Shown here piece after piece: positions 4,602 through 28,074 of a stretch of 28,074 bases of DNA. How positions within the stretch are numbered: the stretch's first letter is position 1; the number at the start of each line of letters is the position of its first letter. Position numbers and translations under genes: made by a program. The notes under the pieces are model-generated. The model was not told where the DNA came from. It searched no databases and saw nothing but the letters and a program-made list of their open reading frames with translations. The stretch lies in the IMG/VR virus record IMGVR_UViG_3300046751_000348, positions 1 to 28,074 of that record; one strand, given 5' to 3'. Origin of the DNA: a virus.

Positions 4602-5015
4602 TTATTTATCTCCTGCTATCATGTTTGCCACATCGACACTTCTCTGTCCTACCTGACGGGCGTAATTAGAATCTAATAGTTCAGTACCGGCCAGCTCGTA
4701 TGAACCTTGCTCTAAGTACGAAATAGTATTTTTAAATTTACAAAACGTGCTTAACCCCATGTTAAACACTAGATTAACTATTGCTTCTTTTCGTATGTCG
4801 GTCAAACCGTCAAACCAAGAGAATGTAGCTTGGCACTGAGCCACAACGCTTTTAATGTCGTTATCAAGAAGATACAGGGCCTCATCTTTAGTGATTCCGA
4901 CTTCCTGTATATTTCTCCCCACGCCAATAGTGGTTTTGTTGGCGGTACACTTGTAGGGCTTTAATTCTAGCCCTTCATGCACTACCAGTTGCTTTTTAAG
5001 TCTATCGTAATCCAT
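4602..5015 (-). CDS. GH24 lysozyme (endolysin)
   Basis: A 137-residue T4-lysozyme-type muramidase. Alignment by eye to T4 lysozyme places the catalytic Glu at E14 (HEGLELKPY), the Asp20 equivalent at C23 and Thr26 at T29 (TTIGVGRN). The Asp-to-Cys change is a known natural variant of the GH24 triad, and a Cys at this position of T4 lysozyme is reported to retain activity, so the enzyme is probably active. Further family features are the DIKSVVAQC helix and the LVFNMG segment. There is no signal peptide, so release needs the holin. Its ATG overlaps the holin stop by one base (TAATG), a coupled holin-endolysin pair. This is most likely the endolysin that frees progeny. Confidence 0.92.
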   Translation of the reverse strand: MDYDRLKKQLVVHEGLELKPYKCTANKTTIGVGRNIQEVGITKDEALYLLDNDIKSVVAQCQATFSWFDGLTDIRKEAIVNLVFNMGLSTFCKFKNTISYLEQGSYELAGTELLDSNYARQVGQRSVDVANMIAGDK

Positions 5016-22567: not shown

Positions 22568-24421
22568 CTAGTATCCAAACGTGTTATCTGAGGGTTGCCA
22601 CCTATTCGGTGGTGTGTTTCTTGGGTCCCAAGGCGAGCCAGATCGTGGCCTTGACATAATACCGTAACGAATAGAATCGTAAGTATGGTCCGATTTAAAG
22701 CGTACATCAATGTCGTCCGAGCCTTTAGGGCAAGTAGGGATAATCTGTAGATCTGAAATTATCTGCCTGCAAGTGTCAAAGAAAACTATTGCTGGCGTTT
22801 CTGTAACTTCATCTACCTTTAAAAGCTCGTGTAATCTATTCCTACCGGCTACTCTAGCGCCTGCCGAACGATCTGATGGCCTCCACCTACATCCCATAGC
22901 AATCATTTCTTCAGCTATGGAAGGACCTATCTGCCCTCTATTATGCCAGCAACTAGAATCAAGAACACCGTAGTGTATAGATTCACCTTGCTCTTCTGCC
23001 ATAACGAGAGAAGCTAAGTCTCTGCCTGTGCGTTTAGAGACGTACAACTCTCTGTAAACGTACAAGGTCTCGTAAGAAGGATCTATCGCAAACCAATGCA
23101 CTGCTGAATAGCTTGAGTAACCGTAATCACACGACCTAAACTTTCTCCAATCGTGGGGTATCTCAAAAGGTTCTGCAGTATGGAGATGTGGTCTAAACTC
23201 TGGGAACGCTGCCCCGTCTGCTATAGCCCAATCACCCTCAAGTAACTGCCGTCTCTGCATCTCTGGTAGAGACAGCAAGTTAGCTTCGTAAGTTCCTTCT
23301 TGGTACAAGTACGGATTATCCTTTAGTGTAGCAGGAATAAACCGTCTTTGAAACAGGGGTTGCCCCGCCTTAGCGTGACTAGGAGGATACAACAATTCCT
23401 CCCCTGTTTCTATATCTGTTGCGTTAAATGTTTTACCTGCAGGTGCAGGGTCTATAAACATTGCCTTAACCCAACCGTGTCCGGGACCTCCGGGGTTGGT
23501 TGTTGCTCTCATGTACACTGGAAGCTCTGGGTCGATAGTCCGTAGACGAGACCTCATGTAGTTCCAAGCGAACGGAGTGGCGTGTTGCGTTAACTCGTCA
23601 AACCCTATGTAAGAGAATGCTTGTCCTTGATAACGAAGTACGTCTTCTTCTCGTTCAAGGTACGTTAACCATAACTTAGCCCCACTAGGAAATATCCACT
23701 GAGACTTTCTTTCTTGCCACTTAGCTCCGACATACGCCCTTGGGTATATCTCTTGGGTCTTCCAGATCAACTCCCTTAGTTCGTCGTTAGTACGTCTAAG
23801 GATTAGACCGTTAAAGTTCTTGTTACCGAAGTAACGCATTGGGTCAGCCAACAGTCCGTAAGACTTGCCTCCCCCTGCAGAACCACCGTACAGTACTTCT
23901 CTCTCTACCGACGCTAAGAACTCTGTCTGAGGTCCTTCGTTAGGGGCAAAGATAACGTCTTGGTTCTGTGGTATAGCGCTATTGCCAGTCAACCCTTCGG
24001 GTGTCTCTGGCTTAGGTTTAGTTACACCGTTAGCTTTATCTCTTCGTTTCTCTGCTGCAATGAGAGATCGCTTTTTAGCGGCTACATCTTTAGTTAATCT
24101 ATCTTGTTTCTTTTCTGCTCTAGTAGTAGGTTTTTTACGAGTCGCTAGTTGTCTATCCCTAGGAGTCTCTACACCTTCTCTAGATACCTTCCACAAGTCT
24201 GACAGACCTTGGTGAGATATTTTCCTACCACCCTCTTCGGTTAGCCACTTGGCTGTCTCCCGTAGAGAGTTACCGTCATCTAAAAAAAGAAACGCTTCCT
24301 CCAACAATGTCAGAAGCGCCTCATCAGGGACCCATTCTTCTTTGTTATTTGGGTCAGCCGCGTAACCAAAAGGAGGTTTTATCGCGGACTTATTTCTTGG
24401 TCTATTCGGCCACTGGCTCAT
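22568..24421 (-). CDS. terL: Terminase large subunit with recombinase-like N-terminal domain
   Basis: The DNA-packaging motor and nuclease, 617 residues from ATG 24421; a TTG just upstream would add one residue. The ATPase has Walker A GGSAGGGKS (179-187), Walker B YIGFDE (271-276) and motif III ATTNPGG (306-312). The nuclease part has likely metal-binding Asp at D432 (CDYGYSS), D488 (VLDSS) and near 578-582 (SDHTYDS). The first 130 residues are extra compared with a normal TerL. They contain PPFGYAADPN (16-25), GNSLRETAKWLTEEG (50-64) and ISHQGLSDLWK (68-78), the pattern of the Recombinase domain of large serine recombinases, followed by a Lys-rich helix. It overlaps TerS by 20 bases and abuts the portal gene. 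The N-terminal domain may bind DNA. Confidence 0.93.
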   Translation of the reverse strand: MSQWPNRPRNKSAIKPPFGYAADPNNKEEWVPDEALLTLLEEAFLFLDDGNSLRETAKWLTEEGGRKISHQGLSDLWKVSREGVETPRDRQLATRKKPTTRAEKKQDRLTKDVAAKKRSLIAAEKRRDKANGVTKPKPETPEGLTGNSAIPQNQDVIFAPNEGPQTEFLASVEREVLYGGSAGGGKSYGLLADPMRYFGNKNFNGLILRRTNDELRELIWKTQEIYPRAYVGAKWQERKSQWIFPSGAKLWLTYLEREEDVLRYQGQAFSYIGFDELTQHATPFAWNYMRSRLRTIDPELPVYMRATTNPGGPGHGWVKAMFIDPAPAGKTFNATDIETGEELLYPPSHAKAGQPLFQRRFIPATLKDNPYLYQEGTYEANLLSLPEMQRRQLLEGDWAIADGAAFPEFRPHLHTAEPFEIPHDWRKFRSCDYGYSSYSAVHWFAIDPSYETLYVYRELYVSKRTGRDLASLVMAEEQGESIHYGVLDSSCWHNRGQIGPSIAEEMIAMGCRWRPSDRSAGARVAGRNRLHELLKVDEVTETPAIVFFDTCRQIISDLQIIPTCPKGSDDIDVRFKSDHTYDSIRYGIMSRPRSGSPWDPRNTPPNRWQPSDNTFGY

Positions 24422-24791
24422 CAACTACATCTTTAGGTGGTAAGATAAATAAGCCACCCTGTTGGGTAGTCACTTCTATCTTCTCTTTTTTAACCAGACC
24501 CACCCGATCTAGTACTTCTTTAGCTGCAGAGACAGCGTTCTTAGCGCCTACCTGCGACGGGTCAACTAAAACTCCCGTCAATGAGAATGCTGCTTTAGGC
24601 GCATTCATGGCGAGCATCGTAGAAGCACGTTCTACTATCTCGTCCTTTAGAGGCTCTACGACCTCTTTAGTTCTTGTGTTAGGTGAGTACCCAGCAATGT
24701 TCATAGCTTCCCGTATAGAGCCTCTGGCTTCGCCACAGAGCGCCTCTAAGAATGCTTCTTGCATCTCAGTGTACTGTTTAGTTTCTGCCAT
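24402..24791 (-). CDS. terS: Terminase small subunit
   Basis: A 129-residue protein with the pattern of Terminase_2-type small subunits. An N-terminal helix-turn-helix is seen in QEAFLEALCGEARGSIREAM and NIAGYSPNTRTKEVV. A central helical oligomerisation part follows, then GAKNAVSAAKEVLDRVGL and VKKEKIEV, the classic end of this family. It would recognise the packaging site and load TerL. The gene lies 2 bases after the basic repeat protein and overlaps the start of TerL. The recombinase-like domain on TerL may share its DNA-binding job. Confidence 0.88.
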   Translation of the reverse strand: MAETKQYTEMQEAFLEALCGEARGSIREAMNIAGYSPNTRTKEVVEPLKDEIVERASTMLAMNAPKAAFSLTGVLVDPSQVGAKNAVSAAKEVLDRVGLVKKEKIEVTTQQGGLFILPPKDVVDEPVAE

Positions 24792-24793
24792 AG

Positions 24794-25798
24794 TTATCGT
24801 CTTTTATTTTTAGGCCTAGTTAAAGCTGCGGCTCTTTGGTATTGCTCAGGAGTCAGTACCATGCCTCCTTTGTTCATTGGTCGAGGCGTAGTCCCTGCGT
24901 TCCTTCCTCGCTGCATTTGTGCCGCCGCCGCCGCTTGCTGTGGCGTTACTTGAGGGCGAGTAAACCTAGCTTGGTTGGCTGCTCGATTTGTCTGTTCAAG
25001 TGTCCTTCGACCACGAAAAGAATTGGGATTAGGCACAGGAGGACGATAGTTAGGGTTAGGTATCCGAGGGCCAAAGCGGCTACTGGTGGGAAGGTATCTG
25101 TCAGTAGTGTTCACATAATTAGGGTTAGGTATCCGCCTGCCACGAGGGCCACCGGACTCCTGTGTGAATCTGTCAGTAGTGTTCACATAATTAGGGTTAG
25201 GTATCCGAGGGCCAAAGCGGCTACTGGTGGGAAGGTATCTGTCAGTAGTGTTAACCGGCGCTTGAGGGTTAGGTCTAAGGTCAGGTGCGCCACGAGGAGG
25301 CCTACGATCCATAAAAGGCTGATTTAAAGGTACGCGAGTAGGATTAGGATTAATAGCCCCACCAGCCCTAGGTCCCATTGGAGTTGGAGTAGGTCTAAAT
25401 CTAGAGGGGGGCCGACTACCATCAGGATACATAGCGGGTTGGCCTATGCGCTGAGGCCTACGAGGACCCGGAGTAAAGTTAGATGGCCGAGATCCTCCAG
25501 TTGCAGTGTCTACATACCGAGGACCCGTGCGTTGAGGGTTCCTGTTGTTTTCCAGAGCGTCTCTTTTAGTTTGCTCGGCAAGAAGATCCGCGTCAATCAT
25601 ACCACCTTCGTGAAGAGGACGACGAGCAGGCTTCTTAGCTGCTGGCTTTTTCTTCTTAGCCATAGGTTTGGCTTTAGCTTTAGGAGCCGCTTTCTTAGCA
25701 GCAGGCTTAGCCTTAGTAGGCATTGGACGTTTTTTTGACGACGGCTGTGCCGCCTTAGCCGCAGGCTTTTTCTTAGTAAGCTTCTTCTTGGCAGGCAT
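24794..25798 (-). CDS. Histone H1-like, proline-rich repeat protein
   Basis: A 334-residue protein and the first gene after the late promoter. The N-terminus (1-62) is an Ala/Lys/Pro run (KKPAAKKAAPKAKAK) like histone H1 tails and bacterial or phage DNA-binding tails. Then comes HEGGMIDADLLAEQ (63-76), followed by a Pro/Arg/Asn-rich middle with three units of about 23 residues (PNPNYVNTTDRYLPTSSRFG type). The C-terminus contains NKGGMVLTPEQYQRAAALTR and a basic end. The GGM motifs echo those of the 1151-residue protein. Low-complexity sequence prevents a family call. It could bind the phage genome in the head or take part in packaging. The AGGG in front of the ATG overlaps one arm of the 16-bp inverted repeat. 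Confidence 0.8.
   Translation of the reverse strand: MPAKKKLTKKKPAAKAAQPSSKKRPMPTKAKPAAKKAAPKAKAKPMAKKKKPAAKKPARRPLHEGGMIDADLLAEQTKRDALENNRNPQRTGPRYVDTATGGSRPSNFTPGPRRPQRIGQPAMYPDGSRPPSRFRPTPTPMGPRAGGAINPNPTRVPLNQPFMDRRPPRGAPDLRPNPQAPVNTTDRYLPTSSRFGPRIPNPNYVNTTDRFTQESGGPRGRRIPNPNYVNTTDRYLPTSSRFGPRIPNPNYRPPVPNPNSFRGRRTLEQTNRAANQARFTRPQVTPQQAAAAAQMQRGRNAGTTPRPMNKGGMVLTPEQYQRAAALTRPKNKRR
25050..25252 (-). repeat. Three in-frame tandem units of 69-72 bp
   Basis: Inside the proline-rich gene three units begin at 25050, 25119 and 25191. The outer two are identical over 62 bp (25050-25111 and 25191-25252). The middle one shares only its ends (TTAGGGTTAGGTATCCG and CTGTCAGTAGTGTT) and differs in the centre. 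Units are multiples of three, so the frame is kept and each codes for 23-24 residues. This is recent duplication inside a coding repeat. Confidence 0.9.
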
Positions 25799-25800
25799 AG

Positions 25801-25967
25801 ATTTACCCTATATAGTATAATTAAAGGTTTTAGTATAGTATTCTATATAATTATTATTATAGTATGTTACTATATAAACTTACAGGAAATTTACTATTTA
25901 AGTATCCTATAAAGATATTCTAATTATAACATATATTTTAATAAAAGTCAAACTATATAGGGTAAAT
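25801..25967. repeat. Perfect 16-bp inverted repeat around the late promoter
   Basis: ATTTACCCTATATAGT at 25801-25816 is the exact reverse complement of ACTATATAGGGTAAAT at 25952-25967. The two arms are 135 bases apart and enclose a very AT-rich stretch with a sigma70 promoter. One arm touches the -35 box on its upstream side; the other ends two bases before the start codon of the proline-rich gene and includes its AGGG ribosome-binding sequence. Two copies of an operator are a likely reading, which would allow looping. The same arms could base-pair only if the transcript began further upstream. Confidence 0.85.
25923..25951 (-). promoter_or_regulatory. Near-consensus sigma70 promoter of the late operon
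   Basis: On the minus strand TTGACT (25951-25946) is followed after exactly 17 bases by TATAAT (25928-25923), in an A+T-rich surround. The expected start of RNA is near 25916, which leaves a leader of about 118 bases before the ATG at 25798. It is the only strong promoter seen in front of the 25-kb packaging, structural and lysis block, so it probably drives that block, subject to the flanking inverted repeat. The 227 bases between the HNH-type gene and the proline-rich gene contain nothing else coding. Confidence 0.82.
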
Positions 25968-26025
25968 AAATTAAAAAAATTACCAAAGACTCTATCTCCT
26001 CCATTACCTGTAACTATATCCCCTC

Positions 26026-26445
26026 CTAAACTAGCTTTTCTTGCCTTGGCGGACATAAATCGTATCCGTTTTGGTTGGCTTCCATGTAATTTAGTACAGA
26101 TTTTAGCTCTTCTAGCGTCCCGTCGTTCTTCAAACGGTTGGCTTTTGCACTAATTATCCTACAATTACCCCTAACGTAGCCCTTTTTGGGGTCTATACGG
26201 TCTATTGACGGGCTAAAGTTGGCCGTACCCTGTCCAACCTTGGTCCATTCTAGCGTTACGCCAAGAATAGGACAGAAAACTGGGTAAGGTTCTAGGTCAA
26301 TTAGCTCTAAATCAAACGGCGTAGCGTCTTTTTGGCATTTATACTTGATATGTGCCAGAGAAGTAGACAATTTCTGCTTAATACAGAACTCTAGTAGGTC
26401 ATTAGGGTCGTACTGGCTTATTTCTTCATCCGTCCATGCGGTCAT
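26026..26445 (-). CDS. Degenerate HNH-type (treble-clef-like) protein
   Basis: A 139-residue protein whose core FCPILGVTLEW (57-67), then FSPSIDRIDPKKGYVRGNCR (77-96), then IISAKANRLKN, is that of a phage protein family related to HNH endonucleases. SIDRIDP takes the place of the DHI strand, GN at 93-94 that of the conserved Asn, and ANRLK that of the last HNH helix. The usual Cys-x-x-Cys zinc pairs are not visible; only single C58 and C95 remain. It may be an active nuclease of the marine-phage type or only a DNA-binding remnant. It starts within the end of the preceding gene (20-base overlap) and lies just upstream of the late promoter. Confidence 0.75.
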   Translation of the reverse strand: MTAWTDEEISQYDPNDLLEFCIKQKLSTSLAHIKYKCQKDATPFDLELIDLEPYPVFCPILGVTLEWTKVGQGTANFSPSIDRIDPKKGYVRGNCRIISAKANRLKNDGTLEELKSVLNYMEANQNGYDLCPPRQEKLV

Positions 26446-26791
26446 AGTCCGTTTCTCCGTCGTCGTCTAGCGGTATAGTCATTTGTTTAATGCTATCTGC
26501 AGCATCTCGCATAGTATTGGAGATGTCCCTTAGACAATCGGACAGAGCGTACAGGTGATTGTAGCCAACTTCAGTGGTTATATAGTGTTCAATCCACCTA
26601 TTGAAGATTTGGGAGAGGGATATACGGTTCTCAGAGCAGGCCTCATCGTCCTCTCCGACGTACATATACAGGACTAGGTTAATGTCGCCTGCTTGGTCTA
26701 ATTCAGCGTCCGCTTCAGCGTAGACTGGTACTTTCAGGTCAAAGTCTGTACCTGTTAATTCTAGTTCAATGTGATGTCCTTTGTTGGCCAT
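26426..26791 (-). CDS. Acidic hypothetical protein
   Basis: A 121-residue, acidic cytoplasmic-type protein starting MANKGHHIELELTGTDFDLK. The first half looks like beta strands, with an ELDQAGDINLVLYMYVGEDD part; the second half is helical (YALSDCLRDISNTMRDAADS). No motif is recognised. It is the first gene behind the strong promoter at 26853-26881. Its leader holds a small dyad, CCCTA-C-TAGGG, just upstream of the start and close to a weak ribosome-binding sequence. Its codon use is like that of the structural genes, not like that of the gene at 27.5-27.9 kb. A regulatory or accessory role is possible. Confidence 0.72.
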   Translation of the reverse strand: MANKGHHIELELTGTDFDLKVPVYAEADAELDQAGDINLVLYMYVGEDDEACSENRISLSQIFNRWIEHYITTEVGYNHLYALSDCLRDISNTMRDAADSIKQMTIPLDDDGETDYDRMDG

Positions 26792-26852
26792 GTGAGTAGG
26801 ATCCCTAGTAGGGTTGTATTAGCACCAACTGCGGGTACTAGTAACGTTAAGA

Positions 26853-26881
26853 GTTATAGCAGCTATATGACAGACCGTCAA
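26853..26881 (-). promoter_or_regulatory. Strong sigma70-type promoter
   Basis: On the minus strand TTGACG (26881-26876) is followed after 17 bases by TATAAC (26858-26853), five of six matches to consensus in each box. The RNA start should be near 26846, which gives a leader of about 55 bases in front of the acidic protein gene at 26791. The -35 box is part of an 11-bp inverted repeat, so a repressor site is likely. Confidence 0.78.
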
Positions 26882-26923
26882 GTTTCCCTGCAGGCCCGTT
26901 TTTGTGTACGCGCTTGACAGTCT
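26872..26923. repeat. 11-bp inverted repeat covering the -35 box
   Basis: AGACCGTCAAG (26872-26882) and CTTGACAGTCT (26913-26923) are reverse complements with one mismatch, 30 bases apart. The first contains the -35 box of the leftward promoter. The second contains a perfect TTGACA facing right, but without a good -10 at 16-18 bases. A second dyad, TGTGTACG (26903-26910) with CGTACACA (26961-26968), is interleaved. This nested layout looks like an operator region. Confidence 0.65.
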
Positions 26924-27429
26924 AAAAATCTTAATCTGTGTTCAGAGCTGTATACGCTAACGTACACACCCCCCCTGTCCCATACCGGCCCGCGTAAGTC
27001 ATTGATTTATCACGTTTTAGTTAACTCTCGGTTACTCGGCTCGGCTAATCTTACAGCGCTTGCGGTAATCATGGCGGAAACTTTGCGCGGCTCGCGGTAA
27101 TTTTAGCGGCCAGCGCTGACAATATACGCGGGCGCGTGTGAGAGCGCCGTTATGCTAGCTAGAATCAATTTAAAATCTAACCTAATGCATTGCCCTAGGG
27201 TCAAACTGTCGGCGCTTGTACGGCGATTGAGGCGGCTTAGAATTCGACCGGCTTTAAACCGGCGCGGACAATGGCCCTAGATTAAAAAGCGCGGGCAATC
27301 GGTCCGGCAATGTAACAGAGCGGCGAATATAGTAGGTTAAAAAATGATCAATCTAAGCTGCTTTAGACAGTGACAAAAAAGGTCATTTAGGGGTGGTGCT
27401 GCTTAGACTTTTTTTGCCAGTCTGCAGAC
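26924..27429. other. Non-coding dyad-rich region, possible control or origin region
   Basis: No convincing gene is found on either strand between the promoter at 26.85 kb and the terminator at 27.43 kb. The region holds a run of seven C (26969-26975), two direct copies of GCGGTAAT (27062-27069 and 27094-27101), two palindromes AGCGCT (27055-27060 and 27112-27117), CCGGCTTTAAACCGG-type dyads around 27248-27262, and CCCTAGGG near 27192. CCGG is frequent here, unlike in the sequence to the left. It could be a replication origin, packaging site or operator cluster. Nothing decides between these. Confidence 0.45.
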
Positions 27430-27455
27430 AAAAAAAAGCCGGCGATTAGACCGGC
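27430..27455 (-). terminator. Rho-independent terminator after the 142-residue gene
   Basis: On the minus strand the stem GCCGG/CCGGC (27455-27438, 8-base loop) is followed by eight T. It lies 25 bases after the stop of the 142-residue gene and should end the rightmost transcript, isolating it from the promoter at 26.85 kb. A perfect 10-bp palindrome, GTCTGCAGAC, follows directly. Confidence 0.8.
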
Positions 27456-27479
27456 GAAGAGGGGACAAATTGAGGGCGA

Positions 27480-27908
27480 TTAATTAGCGGTATCGAATCC
27501 GGCAAGCTTGATCTTGTTAGATTCTGGCAAGCTTATACCGGATAGCTCATACAGAGCATGAAGCCGGCCAAGCTCGTTGTCTAGATCTCGGCCATGATAC
27601 CAGAGCAATACCGCCGGCAATGTTACGCGCTTATCGTAATCGGATAAGTGAAAATTAGCTAAGCCATAATCGCATTGGGTGAAGCCGCCCTGCTTAATAA
27701 CGACGGATAAGGTTGATTCGCAAGCGCGGATATTGCCCCACAATTCGCGGCCCTCGGATACGTCGCCGCAATCAATAACAAGGTTGACGAAACAAGCCGC
27801 TAAGCCGGCGTTAATTTCTAGCCATCCGGTTAGCTGGCGGTCGTGATATTGCTTGCTAGTAATCGCTACAATTTTAGATTCATTTTTTCTGATATTGGTT
27901 GAAATCAT
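27480..27908 (-). CDS. Hypothetical protein with distinct codon use
   Basis: A 142-residue protein starting MISTNIRKNESKIVAITSKQ, with GGGAG 9 bases before the ATG. It looks like a small alpha/beta cytoplasmic protein with a Cys/Gly/Trp-containing middle (CFVNLVIDCGDVSEG, RELWGNIRACES) and a helical C-terminus (GRDLDNELGRLHALYELSG). The family is not recognised. Codon choice favours GGC for Gly, CGC for Arg and ATT/ATC for Ile, while structural genes of this window use many ATA codons. That suggests a different origin or a different part of the phage. A terminator lies on each side, so it probably forms its own unit or depends on read-through. Confidence 0.75.
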   Translation of the reverse strand: MISTNIRKNESKIVAITSKQYHDRQLTGWLEINAGLAACFVNLVIDCGDVSEGRELWGNIRACESTLSVVIKQGGFTQCDYGLANFHLSDYDKRVTLPAVLLWYHGRDLDNELGRLHALYELSGISLPESNKIKLAGFDTAN

Positions 27909-27930
27909 TTTTTAAAACTCCCGTAAAAAT

Positions 27931-27963
27931 AAAAAAAAATAGGCGGCCTGAATAAGCGCCGCC
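27931..27963 (-). terminator. Strong rho-independent terminator
   Basis: On the minus strand a 6-bp all-GC stem GGCGGC/GCCGCC (27963-27942, 10-base loop) is followed by TA and nine or more T. It begins 8 bases after the stop of the partial gene at the right edge. The T-run leads directly into the ribosome-binding region of the 142-residue gene, so that gene is transcribed by read-through or from a promoter not recognised here. Confidence 0.88.
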
Positions 27964-27970
27964 GGTTAGA

Positions 27971-28074
27971 TTAAGCCGCTAGACTTTTGGCGATCCCTTC
28001 AAAAGCTTCGGATATTTTCTTTTCGCGATTCGCTTGGGTGGATCTAATATTTACCGGCGCTTTTTCGCCGACGC
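27971..28074 (-). CDS. Partial gene, C-terminal 34 residues
   Basis: An open frame enters from the right edge and ends at TAA (27973-27971). The visible C-terminus ends with EKKISEAFEGIAKSLAA and is a charged helix. Codon use (GCG, GCC, ATC, TCC, CGC) matches the neighbouring 142-residue gene. A strong terminator just after the stop supports a real gene end. Too little is visible for a function. Confidence 0.6.
   Translation of the reverse strand, partial: VGEKAPVNIRSTQANREKKISEAFEGIAKSLAA

Follow-up and report, generated by a model that had tools for sequence, protein, structure and literature searches.

In the DNA analysed here (the window: 28,074 nt, one strand, positions 1 to 28,074 of IMG/VR virus record IMGVR_UViG_3300046751_000348), the promoter of a phage operon is enclosed by the arms of a perfect inverted repeat, and RNA folding predicts that the start site of the operon's first gene is closed on RNA arriving from upstream and more open on RNA begun at the enclosed promoter. 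The same predicted occlusion and relief recur, with other letters, in a sister lineage. We consider it probable that this region acts as a transcript-origin filter in the manner of T4 gene e or I-TevI, here with the whole promoter placed inside the loop. The arms would pair with each other over a long range in RNA, forming a helix that sorts transcripts by where they began: RNA from the upstream genes (the promoter-like site near 26881, the 121-aa gene and the endonuclease gene) would carry the upstream arm, the ribosome-binding site (RBS) of the 24794–25798 gene would pair with it on emerging, and translation initiation would be blocked, while RNA begun within the loop (~25916) would not carry that arm and would have a more open RBS. 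We infer that in cells the read-through RNA is made, the helix forms and translation is changed.

Locus and phage context

Judged by its terminase, the window is a fragment of an HMO-2011-type phage, since the terminase large subunit (22568–24424) shares 66–68% identity with its counterparts in Roseobacter phages CRP-3, CRP-235, CRP-738 and CRP-212 and, across three quarters of its length, 63% with the one in Puniceispirillum phage HMO-2011. Phages of this type are described in the abstract of PMC9038755 as a dominant and widely distributed marine viral group. All large genes of the window lie on the minus strand, and the arms are placed between an endonuclease gene and the gene of a very basic protein (Table 1). 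Downstream of the latter come the small and large terminase genes and the portal gene, and it is from this gene content only that the operon would be called late. The basic protein has no PHROG or Pfam match, and its first 60 residues contain 25 K/R and zero D/E. Its composition is rich in lysine, arginine, proline and alanine, and its N-terminus resembles a histone tail.

Table 1. Positions of the features discussed, in window coordinates
Feature	Position	Strand	Basis or remark
Upstream arm, RNA order ATTTACCCTATATAGT, proposed anti-RBS strand	25952..25967	-	abuts -35 box
Downstream arm, RNA order ACTATATAGGGTAAAT, holds Shine-Dalgarno of first gene	25801..25816	-	
Shine-Dalgarno-like AGGG, 7 nt before ATG (25798-25796)	25806..25809	-	read from sequence
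Sigma-70-type promoter TTGACT-17-TATAAT, TG before -10	25923..25951	-	11/12 consensus matches
Second promoter-like site TTGACG-17-TATAAC, candidate source of read-through RNA	26853..26881	-	sequence reading
Predicted leader hairpin near 5' end of promoter-initiated RNA, UUAUAGGA...UCCUGUAA	25880..25912	-	
Leader 17-mer AGTAAATTTCCTGTAAG, non-coding	25879..25895	-	identical in 9/9 family members
First gene of downstream operon, 334 aa, pI 11.9, very basic N-terminus	24794..25798	-	
Upstream gene, endonuclease VII/HNH-type endonuclease	26026..26445	-	PHROG 3322, E 1.1e-25
Upstream gene of read-through unit, 121 aa, no assigned function	26426..26791	-	

The inverted repeat and the enclosed promoter

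On the strand of the window, the arms at 25801–25816 (ATTTACCCTATATAGT) and 25952–25967 (ACTATATAGGGTAAAT) are complementary at 16 of 16 positions, with 135 nt between them. The upstream arm, first in RNA order, follows the endonuclease stop codon by 58 nt and ends at 25952, next to the -35 box that begins at 25951, and the downstream arm stops 2 nt short of the ATG at 25798. The promoter (TTGACT at 25951–25946, a 17-nt spacer and TATAAT at 25928–25923, minus strand) is the best of six promoter-like matches in 24300–28074, and its RNA is predicted to start at ~25916, which is 7 nt past the -10 box. Direct reading thus bears out this part of the preliminary description, which had reported a perfect 16-bp repeat spaced by 135 bases, with one arm abutting a TTGACT-17-TATAAT promoter and the other lying over the RBS of the operon's first gene.

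The window has eight inverted repeats whose arms measure 14 nt or longer and fall within 400 nt, and all but this one are imperfect. Dinucleotide-preserving shuffles produced a perfect repeat of 16 nt or longer in 3 of 1500 cases for 25799–26026 (78% AT) and in 0 of 1500 for 25790–25980 (81% AT). A length of 16 bp by chance in such AT-rich DNA is unlikely but not impossible, and the main weight of the case lies with the relatives and the folding controls rather than with the length of the repeat. An Rfam search of the window gave zero matches at gathering score, with two sub-threshold matches at chance level.

For the filter to have something to silence, RNA would have to enter from upstream. 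This is likely, because a promoter-like site at 26881–26853 precedes the upstream genes and no terminator-like site was found on the minus strand from 26881 to 25798, the nearest one upstream being at 27455–27438. The 26881–26853 site had been missed by the promoter listing, whose rule demands a T closing the second hexamer. The sister lineage (group B, below) has a comparable TTGACG site ahead of these genes.

The RNA begun at the inner promoter carries its own predicted hairpin, the 3' side of which falls within the conserved leader 17-mer. Covariation says little about this hairpin because its pairs scarcely vary across members, and a role in mRNA stability is a guess. Across the two lineages together, the 17-mer (25879–25895) is better conserved than the promoter -10 box.

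Two lineages keep the complementarity with different letters

Relatives were sought with terminase, arm, leader 17-mer and endonuclease scans, which led to eight contigs with the same intergenic region; a profile scan via the endonuclease gene returned the same eight again. The exact 16-mer occurs in ten contigs, seven of which were dropped for their unrelated context, and the leader 17-mer in eleven, of which three (L097, L099 and L100) were dropped likewise. Nine loci from a terminase scan of genome contigs (33–64% identity) were left out of the comparison. When a phage collection was searched by DNA similarity, nothing reached 80% coverage of the query, and all that matched was short, AT-rich and from unrelated phages.

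The promoter position and the leader are common to all eight relatives, and the family falls into two groups. Group A consists of the window, L008, L003 and L007, the arms measuring 16 bp in L008 but 15 bp in both L003 and L007. In group B (L014, L016, L102, L103 and L015), the arm sequence is absent, the 17-mer is kept, and the promoter reads TTGACT-17-TATTGT at the same position, so that the -10 box is TATTGT in five of the eight relatives. Since the window and L008 are near-identical, as are L014, L016 and L102, the nine members form two lineages with about six distinct sequences between them. The first gene encodes 334–449 aa in group A and 109–122 aa in group B, and its product is very basic in both (seven members translated); the group B counterpart is short and arginine-rich. 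In the stretch that separates the upstream arm from the endonuclease stop codon, at about 25985–26025, the window and L008 have ~40 nt that are absent in L003 and L007.

In place of the arms, group B has TAGGTAT just before and within the -35 region (ATAGGTAT in L015 and L103), to which L014 and L016 add CTTTTAGT, and the complements ACTAAAAG and ATACCTA(T) are found around the Shine-Dalgarno (AGGGG) and the start codon. In L014, for example, TAGGTAT...CTTTTAGT in and before the -35 region faces ACTAAAAG...ATACCTA at the start site. In this sister lineage, the -35 box itself is inside the pairing strand. The letters have changed between the lineages, while the complementarity of the upstream flank to the RBS has stayed.

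Predicted occlusion depends on where the RNA begins

Occlusion was measured as the predicted thermodynamic cost of freeing the stretch from -13 to +3 relative to the start codon, all folding being computed. This cost was 10.4–16.2 kcal/mol on read-through RNA and 4.4–8.3 kcal/mol on promoter-initiated RNA, a contrast seen in nine of nine members; overall, the values at 37 C were about 10–18 and about 4–8.5 kcal/mol, respectively. In all nine the Shine-Dalgarno and/or the start codon is predicted to lie within a helix on the longer RNA. The promoter (25951–25923 in the window) is located downstream of or within the 5' strand of this helix, and RNA starting at the predicted ~25916 is without that strand. 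The contrast persisted in all nine members with 20, 40, 60, 100 or 200 nt of upstream sequence, with three downstream lengths, and at both 37 and 20 C; the smallest margins were those of L103 and L003 and, in single settings, also of the window and L008.

When the segment before the start was shuffled, the observed cost was reached in 0 of 1000 shuffles for the window, L014 and L015, and in 10 of 1000 for L007, whose value is therefore not extreme; in smaller runs of 150 shuffles it was reached twice for L003 and never for L103. Shuffling the 22 nt before the start codon gave, out of 150 each, 1 for the window, 2 for L003, 2 for L007, 0 for L014, 4 for L103 and 1 for L015. The occlusion is thus lost when the upstream part is shuffled, and it weakens when that part is exchanged between the two lineages. 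For this exchange, the pre-start segments were swapped among the nine members. With 60 nt upstream of the -35 box, costs were 11.9–18.0 within lineages and 5.4–10.2 between them, with no overlap, and with 40 nt they were 10.6–17.1 within and 5.1–12.7 between lineages, ranges that do overlap. No other of the 29 gene starts in the window is as closed as the one at 25798 (15.2, followed by 12.0), and at this start alone does sequence 118–193 nt upstream make a large difference (9.9, followed by 3.0). Column-wise covariation in a joint alignment is weak (term -1.14 kcal/mol) because the two lineages pair in different registers.

Outside the family, a scan of 83 loci, nearly all more distant, yielded 18 distinct promoter-like sites followed by a gene, none of which shows the effect, with differences of -4.5 to +1.5 versus 6.0 to 9.9 in the family under the same settings; the scan used a threshold of 10/12, which would miss group B's own weaker promoter. 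Given this result, the occlusion appears to be limited to the window's clade.

Other readings of the repeat

The preliminary description had proposed a regulatory unit acting on both transcription and translation, in the form of a two-operator switch or paired sites for a phage regulator. This proposal is supported in part: the repeat does belong to the promoter/RBS unit and bears on translation of the first gene, but the operators find no support. Paired DNA operators, at which a phage or host regulator would bind both arms and loop out or block the promoter, would account for two identical arms that closely flank the promoter, for the promoter-proximal placing typical of operators, and for the palindrome CTATATAG within each arm. 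Yet the five group B relatives have the same promoter and leader without the arm letters, having retained the complementarity to the RBS instead—literally the loss of the arms beside a conserved promoter that the preliminary description had named as counting against its proposal—and RNA pairing is favoured over a sequence-specific binding site because that complementarity is kept with other letters. The arm sequence also has no third copy in the window with up to three mismatches allowed, and we regard operators as unlikely. The arms resemble TATAGGG, the core of T7-like phage promoters, and a pair of such promoters was considered and rejected: they would point in opposite directions, one of them against all local genes, and they are absent in group B.

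That the read-through helix serves mainly as a processing or decay site for an RNase III-type nuclease, parting the upstream and downstream messages with loss of translation as a secondary effect, strikes us as quite unlikely. In principle the length of the closing helix, 15–16 pairs, would suffice for such a nuclease, but cleavage would remove the RBS, so the same end would be served, and in group B the helix is interrupted by an internal loop. A functionless chance repeat is decidedly unlikely: the intergenic DNA is 78–81% AT and its shuffles attain 16 bp in 3 of 1500 cases, but chance sits poorly with two lineages that occlude the same start with different letters, and with the finding that, of the four members given 1000 shuffles each, three had none that reached the observed cost. 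It is very improbable that the arms are recombination sites flipping the 135-bp promoter segment. A perfect inverted repeat around a promoter is the classical anatomy of an invertible promoter, but all four arm-bearing sequences have a single orientation, the sequence of the inverted junction matched 0 stretches in viral contigs (where near-identical records may be hidden), and L003 and L007 have arms of 15 bp while group B has none.

Comparison with known systems

Among the closest known parallels to the proposed transcript-origin filter is the T4 lysozyme gene e. Passages in PMC3014915 describe long upstream transcripts of this gene that fold and hide the RBS, and transcripts from an RBS-adjacent promoter that are without the 5' strand and are translated. 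As in our region, the 5' strand of the RBS-hiding structure comes from promoter sequence. For I-TevI, I-TevII, I-TevIII, segB and Aeh1 mobE, passages in PMC2988022 describe an RBS that is sequestered only on early or middle read-through RNA and freed on RNA from an internal promoter. By the accounts in these two sources, T4 e, I-TevI and Aeh1 mobE provide experimental precedent for such sequestration. T4 gene e has a stem–loop and T4-type late promoters (TATAAATA), whereas the promoter here is of sigma-70 type; in group A it lies whole within a loop of ~135–150 nt, in an unrelated podovirus lineage, and the structure is a computed one. In the homing endonuclease leaders, the silenced gene is the endonuclease, whereas here the endonuclease is upstream and the gene to be silenced would be the first of a packaging/structural operon. 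When open-licence literature was searched for such a device in podoviruses and in marine phages, T4 reviews came up and otherwise only unrelated papers, and the word 'promoter' occurs 0 times in the main text of PMC9038755, on HMO-2011-type phages. What sets the present case apart is the unrelated phage lineage, the long promoter-enclosing loop and the fact that in group B part of the pairing strand is supplied by the -35 region.

A more distant likeness is found in yeast, where long undecoded transcript isoforms from an upstream promoter are not translated into product. In both cases the longer RNA would yield no product, though the yeast isoforms use upstream reading frames and the RNA of the window would use pairing.

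If the filter is real, it extends T4-style translational filtering of read-through RNA to HMO-2011-type phages, and suggests a way in which a phage with a seemingly host-type promoter could hold back a very basic protein and a packaging operon until the right transcript is made. The inner promoter, being a near-consensus sigma-70 promoter, may be active from the start of infection, and if it fires at once the device would insulate the operon from stray upstream RNA rather than set its timing. We also entertain, tentatively and as somewhat short of probable, a broader idea: that the non-template strand of the promoter itself doubles as antisense to the start site downstream of it. This would be a wrong-start filter of a general kind, with an origin outside T4-like phages, re-tuned as promoter flank and leader co-evolve. 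Any RNA carrying promoter sequence would then be marked as wrongly begun, and hence be silent. Complementarity between the upstream flank of a promoter and the next start site would be a signature searchable in other genomes.

Elsewhere in the window, two separate lysozyme-like endolysin genes (836–1552 and 4602–5015, PHROG 7 for both) are present in one late operon. A stretch of ~690 nt at 26792–27479 is without a long reading frame, and a G-run plus the motif GTTAGCGTATACA, upstream of the 121-aa gene, is common to the window and L014–L016.
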